From assembly GCA_902512065.1 (NCBI GenBank), contig CABXHU010000003.1, positions 62,001 to 126,000 on the forward strand: 64,000 bases of DNA, given 5' to 3'. Below, one piece after another: positions 52,162 through 58,375 of this stretch. This stretch comes from an uncultured Bacteroidota bacterium (GTDB lineage: Bacteria; Bacteroidota; Bacteroidia; Flavobacteriales; Flavobacteriaceae). The notes under the pieces are model-generated. The model did not search any database and was not told where the DNA came from. It worked only from the letters and a program-made list of their open reading frames with translations. The position numbers and the translations under genes were made by a program. Each line of letters begins with the position of its first letter. Within the stretch, counting starts at the first letter, position 1.

Positions 52162-54063
52162 ATGAAAAAAATATTACTATTAATAGCGGTTATGCTTTTT
52201 ATTACATCTAGTGTAATTGCTCAAAAACCTGCTAGTGAAATTAATCAGACTAGAGCTACTGTAACTTCTGTTGGAAGTGGAGATTGGGACGATGGGGCAG
52301 TATGGTCTACATCTTCTGAACCAACCAGTGGTGATGATGTAGTTATTGCAAGCGGGCATACTGTAACTCAAAATGATGCAGGTGGAGTTTCTGCTAATAC
52401 AGTAACCGTTACAGGAACTTTGCTTTTAGACGGTGCATTAACTGTTGCAACAAACTCATCAGTAGCAGGAACAATGACTTGTTATGCTGCTTACACGCAA
52501 ACAGCAGGAACTTTTTCTAATACGGGAACAGTTAATGTTTTCAAAGGAATTGACATGATATTTTCAGATACAGGCACTGCTATCACAAATACAGGATCTA
52601 TTACTCTAAACTCTGATGCTGATGAATTTGCATCTTTAGTCTTTGGAGGTACTTCTTACACTGATAGTGCTAATGACGATGATTTTACTTATAATAGATA
52701 TGTTACTACTAACGCAGTTGGTTGGGACTTAATGGGATCACCCGTAACTGGTGAAACATTTACTAATGTAATTAATGATGGTAACATTGCATCTAATGGT
52801 ACTGGCTCATCAACGGAATATGGCATTGGTCAGTATGATAATACCGATGGTACATGGGACACTTACACTTCTGCAGAGGCTAGTTCTGCAGGAACTATTT
52901 CTCAGGGGGATGGATATGAAATGGCAACAACAAATGGTGCTACAATAAGTTTTACAGGACAATTAACCACAGGCACAGTTACGGTGGCAATTGAAAATAA
53001 CGACTCAGATAATGGTGGATCTGGATCAAGGTTTACCCTTGTTTCAAATCCATATGCTTCATATATATGTCTTAACAGTAATGCAGATACAGCAGCAAGT
53101 ACTGCTACCACTGATTTCCTAACTCATAATACATCTACAAATGATGTAATAGGAGCTGCTTCTAATGAGGCGGTATATCTTTGGGGAGGAACAGATGCAG
53201 GTTATACTACTATGACAAATGCAACAGGGGCAACTTATGCTGCACCAGGTCAAGGATTTTTTATAGCTGCTGAGTCTACCTCTTCAGCTAATTTACAGTT
53301 TACTGTTACAATGAGAACAATTCTTGGAAGTGATGATGCAATTTCTGGTGATGCAATGGACCCAGATGATAGAGCTGAACTTTTTATTGGTCTTTCTCAA
53401 GGTGATATTAGTAGAGATACTGAAATATACTTTTTAGATAATACTACAGACGGATTGAATCCTAGTTATGATGGAGCAGCATTTGCACTGAATGGCAATA
53501 CTGTTTCTATTTATTCCAGATTAATTTCTGAAGACCAAGGAGTTGATTATTCTGTACAAGCTCTAGCTTATAGTGAAATGTGGGATAAAGTGATTCCAAT
53601 TGGAATTAATGCAACAGCTGGAGAAGAAATGACTATAAGTGTAACACATAAAACTACTCCTGCTGATCTAAAAATATATTTAGAGGACACGCAAGAAGGA
53701 ACTTATACTTTAATAAACAATGAAGACTTTGTAATGACTCCAGCTAGTGATCTAGAGGGTATCGGAAGATTCTTTATTCATATGACCGCTAACGCTCTAA
53801 GTGATGGCGAGGTTAATACAAATTTATTAAATGCGTATAAGAAGGTTGACACTAACTATATTACTATAGAAGGTCTTGCAACTCAATCAACAAGTACAGA
53901 GGTTAGTTTATTCAATATCTTAGGAGCTAAGGTAATGGATGCTACTTTAGATAATACATCAAATACTCAGATGATCTCAACTAACGGATTATCTACTGGT
54001 ATTTATGTAATCAAACTAGAGTCAGGAGAAAATCAACTAACTAAAAAACTAATTATTAAATAA
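52162..54063 (+). CDS. Large secreted protein with T9SS type A sorting domain
   Basis: The 633-residue protein has a signal peptide ending at about residue 21 (VIAQ). An early region GDWDDGAVWSTSSEPTSGDDVVI resembles the repeat found at the start of many Bacteroidetes surface proteins, followed by a Thr- and Ser-rich beta helix-like part (about 50-180), and a middle that includes FTLVSNPYASYI and GFFIAAES. The C-terminal type A sorting domain (about 560-633) has EVSLFNILGAKVMDA and STGIYVIKLESGE. The role is probably surface structure or adhesion. Eleven bases later a 48-residue exported peptide gene follows. Confidence 0.85.
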   Translation: MKKILLLIAVMLFITSSVIAQKPASEINQTRATVTSVGSGDWDDGAVWSTSSEPTSGDDVVIASGHTVTQNDAGGVSANTVTVTGTLLLDGALTVATNSSVAGTMTCYAAYTQTAGTFSNTGTVNVFKGIDMIFSDTGTAITNTGSITLNSDADEFASLVFGGTSYTDSANDDDFTYNRYVTTNAVGWDLMGSPVTGETFTNVINDGNIASNGTGSSTEYGIGQYDNTDGTWDTYTSAEASSAGTISQGDGYEMATTNGATISFTGQLTTGTVTVAIENNDSDNGGSGSRFTLVSNPYASYICLNSNADTAASTATTDFLTHNTSTNDVIGAASNEAVYLWGGTDAGYTTMTNATGATYAAPGQGFFIAAESTSSANLQFTVTMRTILGSDDAISGDAMDPDDRAELFIGLSQGDISRDTEIYFLDNTTDGLNPSYDGAAFALNGNTVSIYSRLISEDQGVDYSVQALAYSEMWDKVIPIGINATAGEEMTISVTHKTTPADLKIYLEDTQEGTYTLINNEDFVMTPASDLEGIGRFFIHMTANALSDGEVNTNLLNAYKKVDTNYITIEGLATQSTSTEVSLFNILGAKVMDATLDNTSNTQMISTNGLSTGIYVIKLESGENQLTKKLIIK

Positions 54064-54074
54064 TTAAGCGAGCT

Positions 54075-54221
54075 ATGAAAAAAACCGGTATAACAAGAAA
54101 ACAGGCAATAAAAAAAATGGGAAAATATGCAGCATTAACTGCTATAGGAACATTTGCTATACTTAATCCTAAAAAAGCACAGGCTCAATCAACTCCTCCA
54201 GGACCTCCTGGATGGAATTAA
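54075..54221 (+). CDS. Small exported peptide (48 aa) with a proline-glycine C-terminus
   Basis: A 48-codon gene starts 11 bases after the T9SS gene stop. The N-terminus is basic (MKKTGITRKQAIKKMGK), followed by a hydrophobic stretch (YAALTAIGTFAIL, about 18-30) and an A-Q-A-Q cleavage-like site at about 34-38, leaving a mature peptide of about a dozen residues with PPGPPGW. The basic head followed by a weak hydrophobic core could be a Tat- or Sec-type signal, though no RR pair is present. I do not recognise a family with certainty, but similar short genes next to T9SS cargo have been seen. A strong terminator follows at 54252. Confidence 0.7.
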   Translation: MKKTGITRKQAIKKMGKYAALTAIGTFAILNPKKAQAQSTPPGPPGWN

Positions 54222-54251: not shown

Positions 54252-54293
54252 AAAAATAGCTTTATCTCAATCAGAGGTAAAGCTATTTTTTTT
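54252..54293 (+). terminator. Strong intrinsic terminator after the T9SS cargo and peptide genes
   Basis: 54252-54268 pairs with 54274-54290 to form a 17-bp stem (one G-U) with a 5-base loop, followed by a T tract to 54293. It closes the unit 52162-54221. Confidence 0.85.
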
Positions 54294-54640: not shown

Positions 54641-55048
54641 ATGAATAGTACACTTAAATATATCCTTATAGTTGTTTTTTCTATTATTTTTTCATGCTCT
54701 TTAATTAATAATGAATCTATTAATCAGATGAATTCAGATGAATTAATAGAATTTATAGAGCTAAATGATGCTGTTTTAGTAGATGTTAGAACAGAGGATG
54801 AATACAATAGTGGCTATATAGAGAATTCATTAAACATAGATTATTTTTCTAATGATTTTTCTGTTAATGCAGATAAATTAGATAAAAACACTCCTATTAT
54901 TCTTTATTGTAGATCTGGCAAGAGAAGCTCAATGTCAGCAAATAAAATCTCAAAACTAGGTTTTAAGGAAATATATAATCTCCAGGGTGGAATATTAGAG
55001 TGGATTGAAGAAGGTAATGCGATTGTCTTTAACGATACGATCAATTAA
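54641..55048 (+). CDS. Rhodanese-domain lipoprotein
   Basis: The 135 residues have a lipoprotein signal (VFSIIFSC) and one rhodanese domain: VLVDVRTEDEYNSGYIENSLN and the loop YCRSGKRSSMSA with its catalytic cysteine, then NLQGGILEWI. It is the envelope-side counterpart of the gene at 54317 and may act on extracytoplasmic sulfur compounds. The stop overlaps that of the convergent kinase gene by four bases. Confidence 0.92.
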   Translation: MNSTLKYILIVVFSIIFSCSLINNESINQMNSDELIEFIELNDAVLVDVRTEDEYNSGYIENSLNIDYFSNDFSVNADKLDKNTPIILYCRSGKRSSMSANKISKLGFKEIYNLQGGILEWIEEGNAIVFNDTIN

Positions 55049-56085
55049 CTTTCTATAATTCCCTTCATATAATCTTTATGTTCTAAAGCTAATCTTGAAA
55101 AAGCATATAGATTCTTACATCTTATAAGGTTTTGTTTTGGATAACTTACTTTATAATAGATGTTTCCATTAAGATAGTCTGTAAGCGCTCTTAAGCCGTG
55201 AATAAATGGCATTAATGCTGTGGAAAGGGGTAATAGTTCAAGTTCTTTTTTAGATAAGAAATCACCATTGCTTTTAAGACCATCGATAAATGCTTTAAAA
55301 AGTGACTTATTAAAAATTATTTTTGACAGATCTTTTTCTTCTTCAGAAGCTGGATTTACTATGGTTCTAACAGCATCTCCAAAATCATAATGAAAATATC
55401 CTTTCATTATGGTATCCATATCAATCATGCATAGTCCTTTGTTTGAACTACTAAATAAAATGTTATTTAACTTAGCATCGTTATGACATATTCTCTCAGG
55501 TAATTCAGAATTGTAAAAAATATTCAATCTCTCAAACATTTCTTTTGAATAGTTTATTTCTTCACTACATTCTTTTATTAAATTAGTGTTAGAATTTTCT
55601 AATGCCACTTCAAATTCATTGATTCTATATGGGAGTTTATGAAAATTATCTAGAGTGTCAATATATAATTTTACATCTTCATCTTTTAGGAGCAGATGAA
55701 ATAAACTAAGGATTTTTCCAGCTTCAAATGCATCATTAATATTTTCCGCATTATCCTTTGTGTAACTTCCACTAACATATTCCATTAATCTCCAATAATC
55801 TTTTTTTGAATTATAAAATACACTTTCAGTAGATGTTTTTATGAATTTTATTTTATGGTAATTAATATCATCTAACTTATTAATAGATAAATTAATATTG
55901 TTTTTAATCGCCTCAATTTTCTTAAACACATTGGTGTTTATTTTTTGCAATACATATTTTCTTTCACCATCTTTAATTACATAAAATGAGTCATTAATAT
56001 AACCAGTATCAATTCTTTTATAGCTTAGATTAGATGCATTTACATCAAAATTTGATAGAATGTTATTTAGCTCAGCAGTATTCAA
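55045..56085 (-). CDS. N-acetylhexosamine 1-kinase-like (aminoglycoside phosphotransferase family)
   Basis: The 346-residue enzyme has the protein-kinase-like fold of aminoglycoside and choline phosphotransferases. Most like N-acetylhexosamine 1-kinase (NahK): the early IDTGYINDSFYVIKDGER and VLQKINTNVFKKIE, the catalytic loop CHNDAKLNNILF (Asp203) and the metal-binding IDMDTIMKG (Asp222, Asp224). NahK makes HexNAc-1-phosphate, which the adjoining nucleotidyltransferase could convert to UDP-HexNAc. The start is TTG in a TTGA overlap with that gene; no ATG precedes conserved sequence. Substrate inferred, not proved. Confidence 0.8.
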   Translation of the reverse strand: MNTAELNNILSNFDVNASNLSYKRIDTGYINDSFYVIKDGERKYVLQKINTNVFKKIEAIKNNINLSINKLDDINYHKIKFIKTSTESVFYNSKKDYWRLMEYVSGSYTKDNAENINDAFEAGKILSLFHLLLKDEDVKLYIDTLDNFHKLPYRINEFEVALENSNTNLIKECSEEINYSKEMFERLNIFYNSELPERICHNDAKLNNILFSSSNKGLCMIDMDTIMKGYFHYDFGDAVRTIVNPASEEEKDLSKIIFNKSLFKAFIDGLKSNGDFLSKKELELLPLSTALMPFIHGLRALTDYLNGNIYYKVSYPKQNLIRCKNLYAFSRLALEHKDYMKGIIES

Positions 56086-56980: not shown

Positions 56981-58084
56981 TTAGTTTAGTTTGTTAATTA
57001 AATTTATAGCTTTTTCATTATTACAATAATGTAAACTATAAAATTCTGTATTAATTACCCAATCAATGAACTTTTTTGCATGTTTTTCGTCTGATGCAAT
57101 CCAAGCATCAGGCAAAAATTGTTTTATTGCCTCTTCTTTATCAATCTTGTTAAGCGTATTAGGTCCTTTTATATCATATTGGACATGAATTACCTTATTA
57201 CAATTAAAGGGGCCTAAATCTTTAAATTTTGGAGGTAAATATTTAACCCAACCTTTAATATTATTAATATAATATGGTTTTAATTTTTCAAAATCATTAT
57301 AAATTGATGAAGCCTTCTTAAAGAAGTTCTCTTTTATTGAAATAGCTGATGGAAATGTGTATATAGATGAGTCATCTGATAGTATTGGAGTAAAATCATC
57401 GGATATAAAATTAAATCCATTGGCCATTAGAATTGTTGTTAGAGAACTTTTTCCATTTCCAGAATCACCTGTTAGTATAATAGCTTCATTATTTTTTTCA
57501 AGTGCTGAAGCATGTAATACTCCCATCCAATCATCTTCAATCTTTGCATAAAAAAACGAGGTTAGTTCCATTGAAAATTTTCCTTGAAACTCATGCATAT
57601 TTTCATGTGTCCATCCACCAATGCACCTATCTTTATTAAAGAGGTAGATCACTTTATTTTCAGAAAAAACTGTTAATTCACCAGATATTTCATGATCTTC
57701 ATTTGATTGAAGATGTAAAAACTTAGGATTAATTAAATCTTTTGTCATCTGAGAATCAAAACACACTTTAATTGTTTTATTGTTAAAAGTATATTTAACA
57801 TGAATTTCAATGGTTTTTGAGATTCTTTCTGTTTTAAGAATTTTATTCTTGAAAGTATCAGTGCATTCACTAATAAATTCATTCATTTGGTTATTAATTT
57901 CTATATAATTTTTTTCAGATAAGTCAGGAGAATCTTTAATTTTTCTTATGAATTTATCATTATCACTTAGTTTCAGCGATAGCAATTCAGAAAATTTCTT
58001 ATCAACTACCACATATTTATTGGAAGATTTAAACCAGTACAAATCTGTAGTGCTAGAAATTTCCTCTTTCAGGTAAGAAATCAT
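56981..58084 (-). CDS. HPr kinase-like P-loop protein
   Basis: The 367-residue protein has a Walker A loop GDSGNGKSS (206-214) preceded by LHASAL (190-195), and an ISDDF (227-231) where HPr kinase has its VADD. This matches the catalytic core of HprK-related kinases, with the other conserved segment FPSAISIKENFF. The N-terminal half (1-180) has no HprK domain I, though its first 40 residues may be PqqD-like. No HPr or PTS gene is nearby, so the target is probably not HPr. It is first in the operon with the nucleotidyltransferase and NahK-like gene. Confidence 0.75.
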   Translation of the reverse strand: MISYLKEEISSTTDLYWFKSSNKYVVVDKKFSELLSLKLSDNDKFIRKIKDSPDLSEKNYIEINNQMNEFISECTDTFKNKILKTERISKTIEIHVKYTFNNKTIKVCFDSQMTKDLINPKFLHLQSNEDHEISGELTVFSENKVIYLFNKDRCIGGWTHENMHEFQGKFSMELTSFFYAKIEDDWMGVLHASALEKNNEAIILTGDSGNGKSSLTTILMANGFNFISDDFTPILSDDSSIYTFPSAISIKENFFKKASSIYNDFEKLKPYYINNIKGWVKYLPPKFKDLGPFNCNKVIHVQYDIKGPNTLNKIDKEEAIKQFLPDAWIASDEKHAKKFIDWVINTEFYSLHYCNNEKAINLINKLN

Positions 58085-58180: not shown

Positions 58181-58375
58181 TTATTTTCCTTTTAAAAACG
58201 GAAGACCAGTTTTTTGGTTTTCTACAACTGATTTACCTGATGGTAAGTCACAAGCATTAGGTCTTGAGTCTTTTGCGAAATAATAAATTGTTTGATTTCT
58301 TCCACCTTTTAACACTACGTCTTTAGAGTGTAAGTGGTAAGTTTTTCCTTTACTGTTTGTGTGAGTATAACCCAT
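58181..58375 (-). CDS. Small conserved-looking protein (64 aa) of unknown function
   Basis: The 64 residues form a basic soluble protein starting MGYTHTNSKGKTYHLHSK and including GGRNQTIYYFAK, ACDLPSGKSVVENQKTG and the ending LPFLKGK. I recall similar short proteins, with an IYYF(A/S)K block and an LP...VVEN..TG block, in many marine bacteria. There is no signal peptide or membrane segment. Its own terminator lies downstream, so it is probably a single-gene transcript. The region upstream to 58488 shows no clear promoter match. Confidence 0.85.
   Translation of the reverse strand: MGYTHTNSKGKTYHLHSKDVVLKGGRNQTIYYFAKDSRPNACDLPSGKSVVENQKTGLPFLKGK

Follow-up and report, generated by a model that had tools for sequence, protein, structure and literature searches.

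A small conserved gene beside a T9SS cargo gene in Flavobacteriaceae as a candidate precursor of a kinase-modified exported peptide

The locus

The window, meaning the whole stretch of 64,000 nucleotides analysed here (positions 62001-126000 of contig 3), belongs to a draft genome of 1.27 Mb that is 77% complete. The small gene under study lies on its forward strand between a gene for a T9SS type A cargo protein and a terminator-like structure, as originally predicted from the letters of the DNA: the frame reads intact from ATG to TAA, both sorting-domain families match the upstream gene well (Table 1), whose stop codon lies 11 nt from the start of the peptide gene, and a hairpin with its T-run follows. 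Both this spacing and the position of the hairpin fit a single transcript carrying cargo and peptide, which is plausible. Further downstream, a convergent operon on the reverse strand encodes an HprK-like kinase, a sugar-nucleotidyltransferase only 5 nt from it and a small-molecule kinase of the APH family. A second small intact frame of 64 aa (MGYTHTNSKGKTYHLHSKDVVLKGGRNQTIYYFAKD...) is found at 58181-58375 of the minus strand; neither Pfam nor NCBIfam gave a match above cut-off for it.

Table 1. Features of the locus, in positions of the window
Feature	Position	Strand	Remarks
Cargo gene, T9SS type A	52162..54063	+	633 aa, directly upstream of the peptide gene; PF18962 E 3.9e-12, TIGR04183 E 1.3e-9
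Cargo C-terminal module, about 430 aa, all-beta by prediction	52774..54060	+	GNPYPSY, APGQGFF and GRFF motifs plus sorting domain; common to peptide-adjacent cargo genes
Putative precursor peptide gene	54075..54221	+	48 aa, ATG...TAA, reads MKKTGITRKQAIKKMGKYAALTAIGTFAILNPKKAQAQSTPPGPPGWN; based on relatives, selection and profile matches
Leader / export-signal part, residues 1-37	54075..54185	+	ITRKxA(I/L)KK...KYAALTAIGTF.ILNPKKAQA; most conserved part of the system
Tail / putative core, residues 38-48	54186..54218	+	QSTPPGPPGWN; differs among relatives, rich in Pro and Gly
Codon of Ser39, +2 from AQA^	54189..54191	+	invariant; candidate phosphorylation site
Terminator-like hairpin, then T-run	54252..54290	+	17-nt arms; 3' of the peptide gene
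APH-family small-molecule kinase	55045..56085	-	third gene of the kinase operon; not kept in all relatives
Sugar-nucleotidyltransferase, PF00483	56082..56975	-	adjacent to the kinase gene in all window-clade loci examined
HprK-like Ser-kinase, candidate partner	56981..58084	-	367 aa; catalytic H191, P-loop K212, D229 D230
Kinase N-terminal domain, residues 1-78	57851..58084	-	predicted beta3-alpha3, PqqD/RRE-like; weak sequence match

Searches of Pfam and NCBIfam assigned the 48-residue peptide to no family, a match to DMAC1 (E 0.13) being noise, and found no C-terminal sorting domain (Por_Secre_tail) in it, so that the peptide itself lacks this mark of T9SS cargo. A search of viral contigs with the peptide returned no relative and hence no sign of a phage gene.

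Conservation and selection

A tblastn search of GTDB genomes with the peptide returned 94 relatives, the nearest labelled as uncultured marine Bacteroidetes and Flavobacteriaceae. The 80 that were kept bear labels of Flavobacteriaceae genera (Winogradskyella, Psychroserpens, Gelidibacter, Tenacibaculum, Polaribacter, Xanthomarina, Lutibacter and others) or of uncultured Bacteroidetes, together with one Rhodobacteraceae-labelled sequence whose frame is broken. Altogether about 99 distinct homologues were collected, all from Flavobacteriaceae save one broken fragment in a MAG, and a profile search placed the peptide in 20 of 199 Flavobacteriaceae genomes. Across 54 unique DNA blocks the median dN/dS is 0.07 (median dN 0.06, dS 1.13), and differences at codon positions 1, 2 and 3 number 8262, 4171 and 27459, the third exceeding the other two by 3 to 6 times, a pattern that indicates a protein-coding gene under purifying selection. 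The peptide gene is almost certainly real and translated, and the conservation on which the original prediction had been staked is extensive. The copy on L073, a contig labelled as a Rhodobacteraceae MAG, consists of a broken cargo end and peptide and probably reflects binning contamination.

Leader, cleavage site and tail

Seven positions (R8, A11, T22, A23, L30, P32 and S39) are invariant in an alignment of 40 peptides. Mean pairwise identity across genera is 78% in the leader (residues 6-37) and 47% in the tail, compared with 33-34% for the two enzymes, kinase and nucleotidyltransferase, and for the cargo module, in a set of relatives that had been found via this peptide; this ascertainment bias is limited, because 19 of the 20 kinase-bearing genomes hold a recognisable peptide. 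A leader at 78% where enzymes and cargo stand at 33% is the pattern expected of a recognition leader. The idea of an exported peptide linked to T9SS cargo, put forward in the original prediction, is upheld by a conserved gene with an export-type N-terminus, but that N-terminus is far too conserved for an ordinary signal peptide. The same contrast bears on the reading in which the leader is a mere signal peptide, the tail an unmodified surface or signalling peptide acting with the cargo, and the kinase and nucleotidyltransferase polysaccharide genes that happen to share the locus: the signal-like hydrophobic stretch and the AQA^ site are what it would predict, whereas the conservation of the leader goes far beyond the need of a generic signal peptide.

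Among 96 parsed peptides, AQA occupies positions -3 to -1 in 84, position +1 is taken by different residues (Q, S, N, T, A, V, L and others) and Ser stands at +2 in every one, as it does in 40 of 40 aligned sequences. This combination supports cleavage at AQA^xS, after residue 37, as the best-supported site, which would leave an 11-residue tail. The short Pro/Gly-rich mature peptide first proposed is retained, with its cleavage site moved by the 96-peptide comparison from AQAQ to AQA. Tails in relatives usually end in W or F, often followed by D or N. The invariance of Ser39 marks it as a conserved functional residue of the tail region, although it could instead be conserved for processing. 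Several loci (L069, L004, L009, L011, L075, L076, L079 and L087) carry long unrelated C-terminal extensions past the conserved Ser, examples being GKPGKPGKP repeats and a shared LEKIIDQQNEDMYEGIGDMYD-type tail.

The N-terminus shares some features with Tat signal peptides, in that its (S/T)R(K)xA(I/L)KK resembles (S/T)RRxFLK and basic residues stand ahead of the cleavage site, but the peptide has Ala in place of Phe and never a twin arginine. A canonical Tat substrate was rejected as an explanation, since none of 90 peptides has RR in its first 25 residues and RK stands where RR would be expected. TatC is near universal, which makes its presence uninformative on this route, and the leader is compatible with export via Sec or via an atypical use of Tat.

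Association with a class of T9SS cargo

The C-terminal module of the upstream cargo is all-beta by prediction (model pLDDT 80), and Foldseek matches its model to T9SS CTD folds such as 8glk_D and 8qb1. Its profile matches 80 of the 89 genes found upstream of peptides, 55 of which were used to build the profile and so match by construction; truncated and other upstream genes outside these training members also score. About 90% of peptide copies lie just downstream of a module cargo. In genomes such as AG-313-F11 and AG-390-J14, DNA identity between paralogues is about 0.8-1.0 over a stretch that starts some 300 nt upstream and runs into the final codons of the peptide, and it drops to background right after the stop; copies with this pattern are on L013, L014, L030, L019 and L022. 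The cargo end and the peptide thus appear to have been duplicated or homogenised as one unit, which suggests a cassette subject to gene conversion or duplication. Seven contigs start inside a peptide or within 150 nt of one, as assembly breaks are expected at repeats.

The module also occurs alone. One genome (G200) has nine strong cargo modules and one peptide, in the genome of the window (G000) a further module cargo, on another contig (C36), lacks a peptide, and weak module matches occur in 144 genomes; this rules out the peptide as an obligate partner of each module cargo and shows that it is not the simple partner of one. The pairing of peptide and cargo first proposed survives as a linkage to cargo genes of a specific module class, and a physical partnership between the two proteins is possible but doubtful. 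These observations also bear on a reading in which the peptide is an uncleaved small membrane protein, a chaperone or tether for module T9SS cargo whose conserved transmembrane part does the work. The conserved hydrophobic segment, the position of about nine copies in ten behind a module cargo gene and the joint homogenisation of cargo 3' end and peptide are all in its favour. Against it stand genomes with up to nine modules and a single peptide, the module cargo of G000 that has none, the consensus AQA^ site, which points to cleavage, and the co-occurrence with kinase and NTP_transf_5 described below, which it does not explain; this reading is quite improbable.

A kinase and a nucleotidyltransferase that accompany the peptide

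In 27 loci the gene next downstream of the peptide, within about 200 nt, encodes an HprK-like protein of about 375 aa, and in most of them NTP_transf_5 (PF14907) then follows where sequence allows, giving the order cargo-peptide-kinase-NTP_transf_5 in about 27 loci. The clade of the window is arranged as cargo, peptide, (lipoprotein), rhodanese, rhodanese and then a convergent PF00483 gene coupled to the HprK-like kinase; the APH-family kinase was seen only in the window and in L016 among the loci examined. The NTP_transf_5 gene of this genome is found 21 kb ahead of the window on the same contig (C3:40387-41439), within what we read from its ORFs as a polysaccharide locus of dTDP-rhamnose type. 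With an unlinked NTP_transf_5 and a convergent kinase in this clade, the operon is not universal. In G167 a 391-bp unit is repeated five times in tandem (97% matches) beside a tRNA-Met (L137:70-2059), a few kb from another peptide copy; every unit contains a 119-aa GIY-YIG ORF (PF01541).

Co-occurrence was examined in 199 Flavobacteriaceae genomes from 198 genera. The kinase, like the peptide, is present in 20 of them, and 19 have both (Fisher p 2.5e-24); NTP_transf_5 is present in 18, all within the kinase set and G000 among them (18/20, Fisher p 1.1e-23), and together with the peptide in 17 (Fisher p 1.2e-20). These values ignore phylogeny, an effect mitigated by sampling about one genome per genus. 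Two drafts, both incomplete, depart from the pattern: G053 with a kinase fragment and G001 with a peptide only. Among 395 genomes of the phylum, full-length kinases and intact peptides were found only in Flavobacteriaceae. G325 and G537, two genomes of one genus, each combine six peptides with a single kinase, which, with the nine modules per peptide of G200 and the lone module of G000, indicates that the peptide belongs first to the kinase system and second to the cargo class. It is highly likely that peptide and kinase form one functional system. Taking peptide and cargo as the unit, as was done at the outset, had missed these key partners, the HprK-like kinase and NTP_transf_5. In G000, G192 and G167, kinase or NTP_transf_5 genes form part of polysaccharide loci, as would be expected if the peptide were unmodified and the enzymes served polysaccharide synthesis; however, 19 of the 20 peptide carriers also have the kinase and 19 of the 20 kinase carriers the peptide, including genomes in which the two genes are unlinked, which leaves the unmodified exported peptide an unlikely explanation.

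The peptide of G001 / SI047_bin123 (L128:3097-3243, L020) stands alone between folD and a glyoxalase-type gene with no adjoining cargo, and no kinase, NTP_transf_5 or strong module was detected in G001 (84% complete). It shows unusual changes at conserved sites (G16R and K34Q) and is possibly an orphan losing constraint.

Kinase structure

An AlphaFold2 model of the kinase, built from an alignment with 28 relatives, has a mean pLDDT of 92. The fold search, which covered residues 82-367, returned a PEPCK/HprK fold (Z about 14 for PEPCK, 12.0 for HprK/P 1ko7_A). All 28 kinases compared keep His191, P-loop Lys212, Asp229 and Asp230, with a P-loop of GDSGNGKS type, and the same His-Lys-Asp-Asp set is reported as catalytic and essential in lasso-peptide kinases (review PMC9266682). 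The best named family for the C-terminal half is TIGR04352 (HprK-related kinase A), but at 63.7 bits the kinase falls far under the curated cut-off of 200, and it differs from TIGR04352 systems in its N-terminal domain and context.

Three strands followed by three helices are the topology of PqqD-type RiPP recognition elements (RREs). The N-terminal domain of the kinase is modelled with this arrangement (E4-10 E13-18 E23-28 H29-40 H42-50 H57-75). PF05402 (PqqD) is the sole Pfam family to match more than one of 23 such domains, weakly and in 4 of them (best E 5.8e-4, in a relative, at 20.6 bits against a cut-off of 23.4), and a profile of the N-terminus gave just weak, unrelated matches among PDB sequences. 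From its predicted topology the domain is likely an RRE, the sequence match being weak. A discrete PqqD gene elsewhere was found in none of 21 genomes searched.

A peptide that instead regulates or localises the HprK-like kinase, whose true substrate would be another protein or a lipid-linked glycan, would be consistent with a single-copy kinase, a conserved leader before a variable tail and the links to polysaccharide loci. However, it does not account for an invariant Ser amid an otherwise variable tail region, and the known HprK-like RiPP kinases, in the accounts given in PMC9266682 and PMC13381572, act on a peptide Ser, which makes such a role very unlikely.

Proposed pathway

We favour, with moderate confidence, a precursor of a ribosomally made, kinase-modified peptide that is phosphorylated at Ser39, perhaps glycosylated, exported and cleaved. 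The precursor, encoded next to its module T9SS cargo, would be made from the same locus and possibly from a shared transcript, and in the cytoplasm the kinase would bind the conserved leader of the precursor through its RRE-like N-terminal domain. The kinase and nucleotidyltransferase probably modify the invariant Ser: phosphorylation of Ser39 by the kinase is reasonably likely, and NTP_transf_5 may then attach a sugar or a nucleotidyl moiety to that phosphate, in the manner of PsmN in pseudomycoidin, with the sugar-nucleotide enzymes encoded beside the kinase as possible helpers in the clade of the window. The leader would then act as an export signal and signal peptidase would cut at AQA^QS, releasing a modified Pro/Gly-rich peptide of about 11 residues; the loci examined showed neither a leader peptidase nor an exporter dedicated to it. 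One kinase per genome would normally serve one to six precursors. More speculatively, the product might work at the cell surface or within the envelope, alongside module-class T9SS cargo or surface polysaccharide. The wider proposal is of a new Bacteroidota RiPP class, whose leader would both be recognised by an RRE-kinase fusion and direct export. Its invariant Ser would first receive a phosphate and then a sugar, and its synthesis and display would go together with those of one particular class of T9SS cargo. This proposal is tentative and has in our estimate slightly less than an even chance of being right.

Comparison with known systems

The closest parallels are the LPP RiPPs of Bacillota, in which LppK phosphorylates S3 of the core AQSNWK and the S3A change abolishes this; their clusters are also found in polysaccharide loci, and they are stated to be restricted to Bacillota (PMC13381572). 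The system described here has in common with them a conserved precursor N-terminus with a variable tail, an HprK-like kinase, an NTP transferase (here PF14907), a signal-peptidase-like cleavage site with the acceptor or candidate Ser just inside the core (AQS at the start of the LPP core, AQA^xS here), links to polysaccharide loci and a patchy distribution. It differs in its host family, in its coupling to T9SS cargo and in a hydrophobic signal-like leader that lacks YxxPxVLxHQxIxFETxxS in the alignment of 40; the [Y/W]xxP motif of LPP and paeninodin leaders is likewise absent from it. A discrete RRE, an SpI-like peptidase and an MsbA-like pump were not seen in the gene maps examined, the RRE-like domain seeming to be fused to the kinase. 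With these elements and the leader motif not seen, the system is better said to work like LPP than to be LPP.

The lasso peptides paeninodin and pseudomycoidin provide a second parallel, with an HprK-like kinase that bears His-Lys-Asp-Asp and acts on Ser, and a nucleotidyltransferase, PsmN, that adds hexoses onto the phosphorylated Ser of pseudomycoidin, according to the review PMC9266682. Here, in contrast, the candidate Ser lies close to the beginning of the tail instead of at the C-terminus. The maps examined contain neither a macrolactam cyclase (C) nor a B2 leader protease, and the tail encoded in the window has no Asp/Glu for ring closure (lasso core position 7-9).

Phospho-RiPPs with an HprK-like kinase and a nucleotidyltransferase have been reported as a speciality of Bacillota (LPP, paeninodin) whose biological role is unknown, and the literature searched contained neither a described Bacteroidota phospho-RiPP nor a T9SS-linked RiPP. 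If the proposal is correct, this chemistry would extend to another phylum: Flavobacteriaceae would have a compact form of it, with a distinct type of leader, a single kinase in each genome and a constant association with T9SS cargo. It would also provide a natural case of a signal-like sequence serving as a RiPP leader and a handle on the role of such peptides at the cell surface. The idea is directly testable with one kinase and one peptide, and it illustrates how a 48-aa gene that neither Pfam nor NCBIfam contains can point to an entire conserved system.
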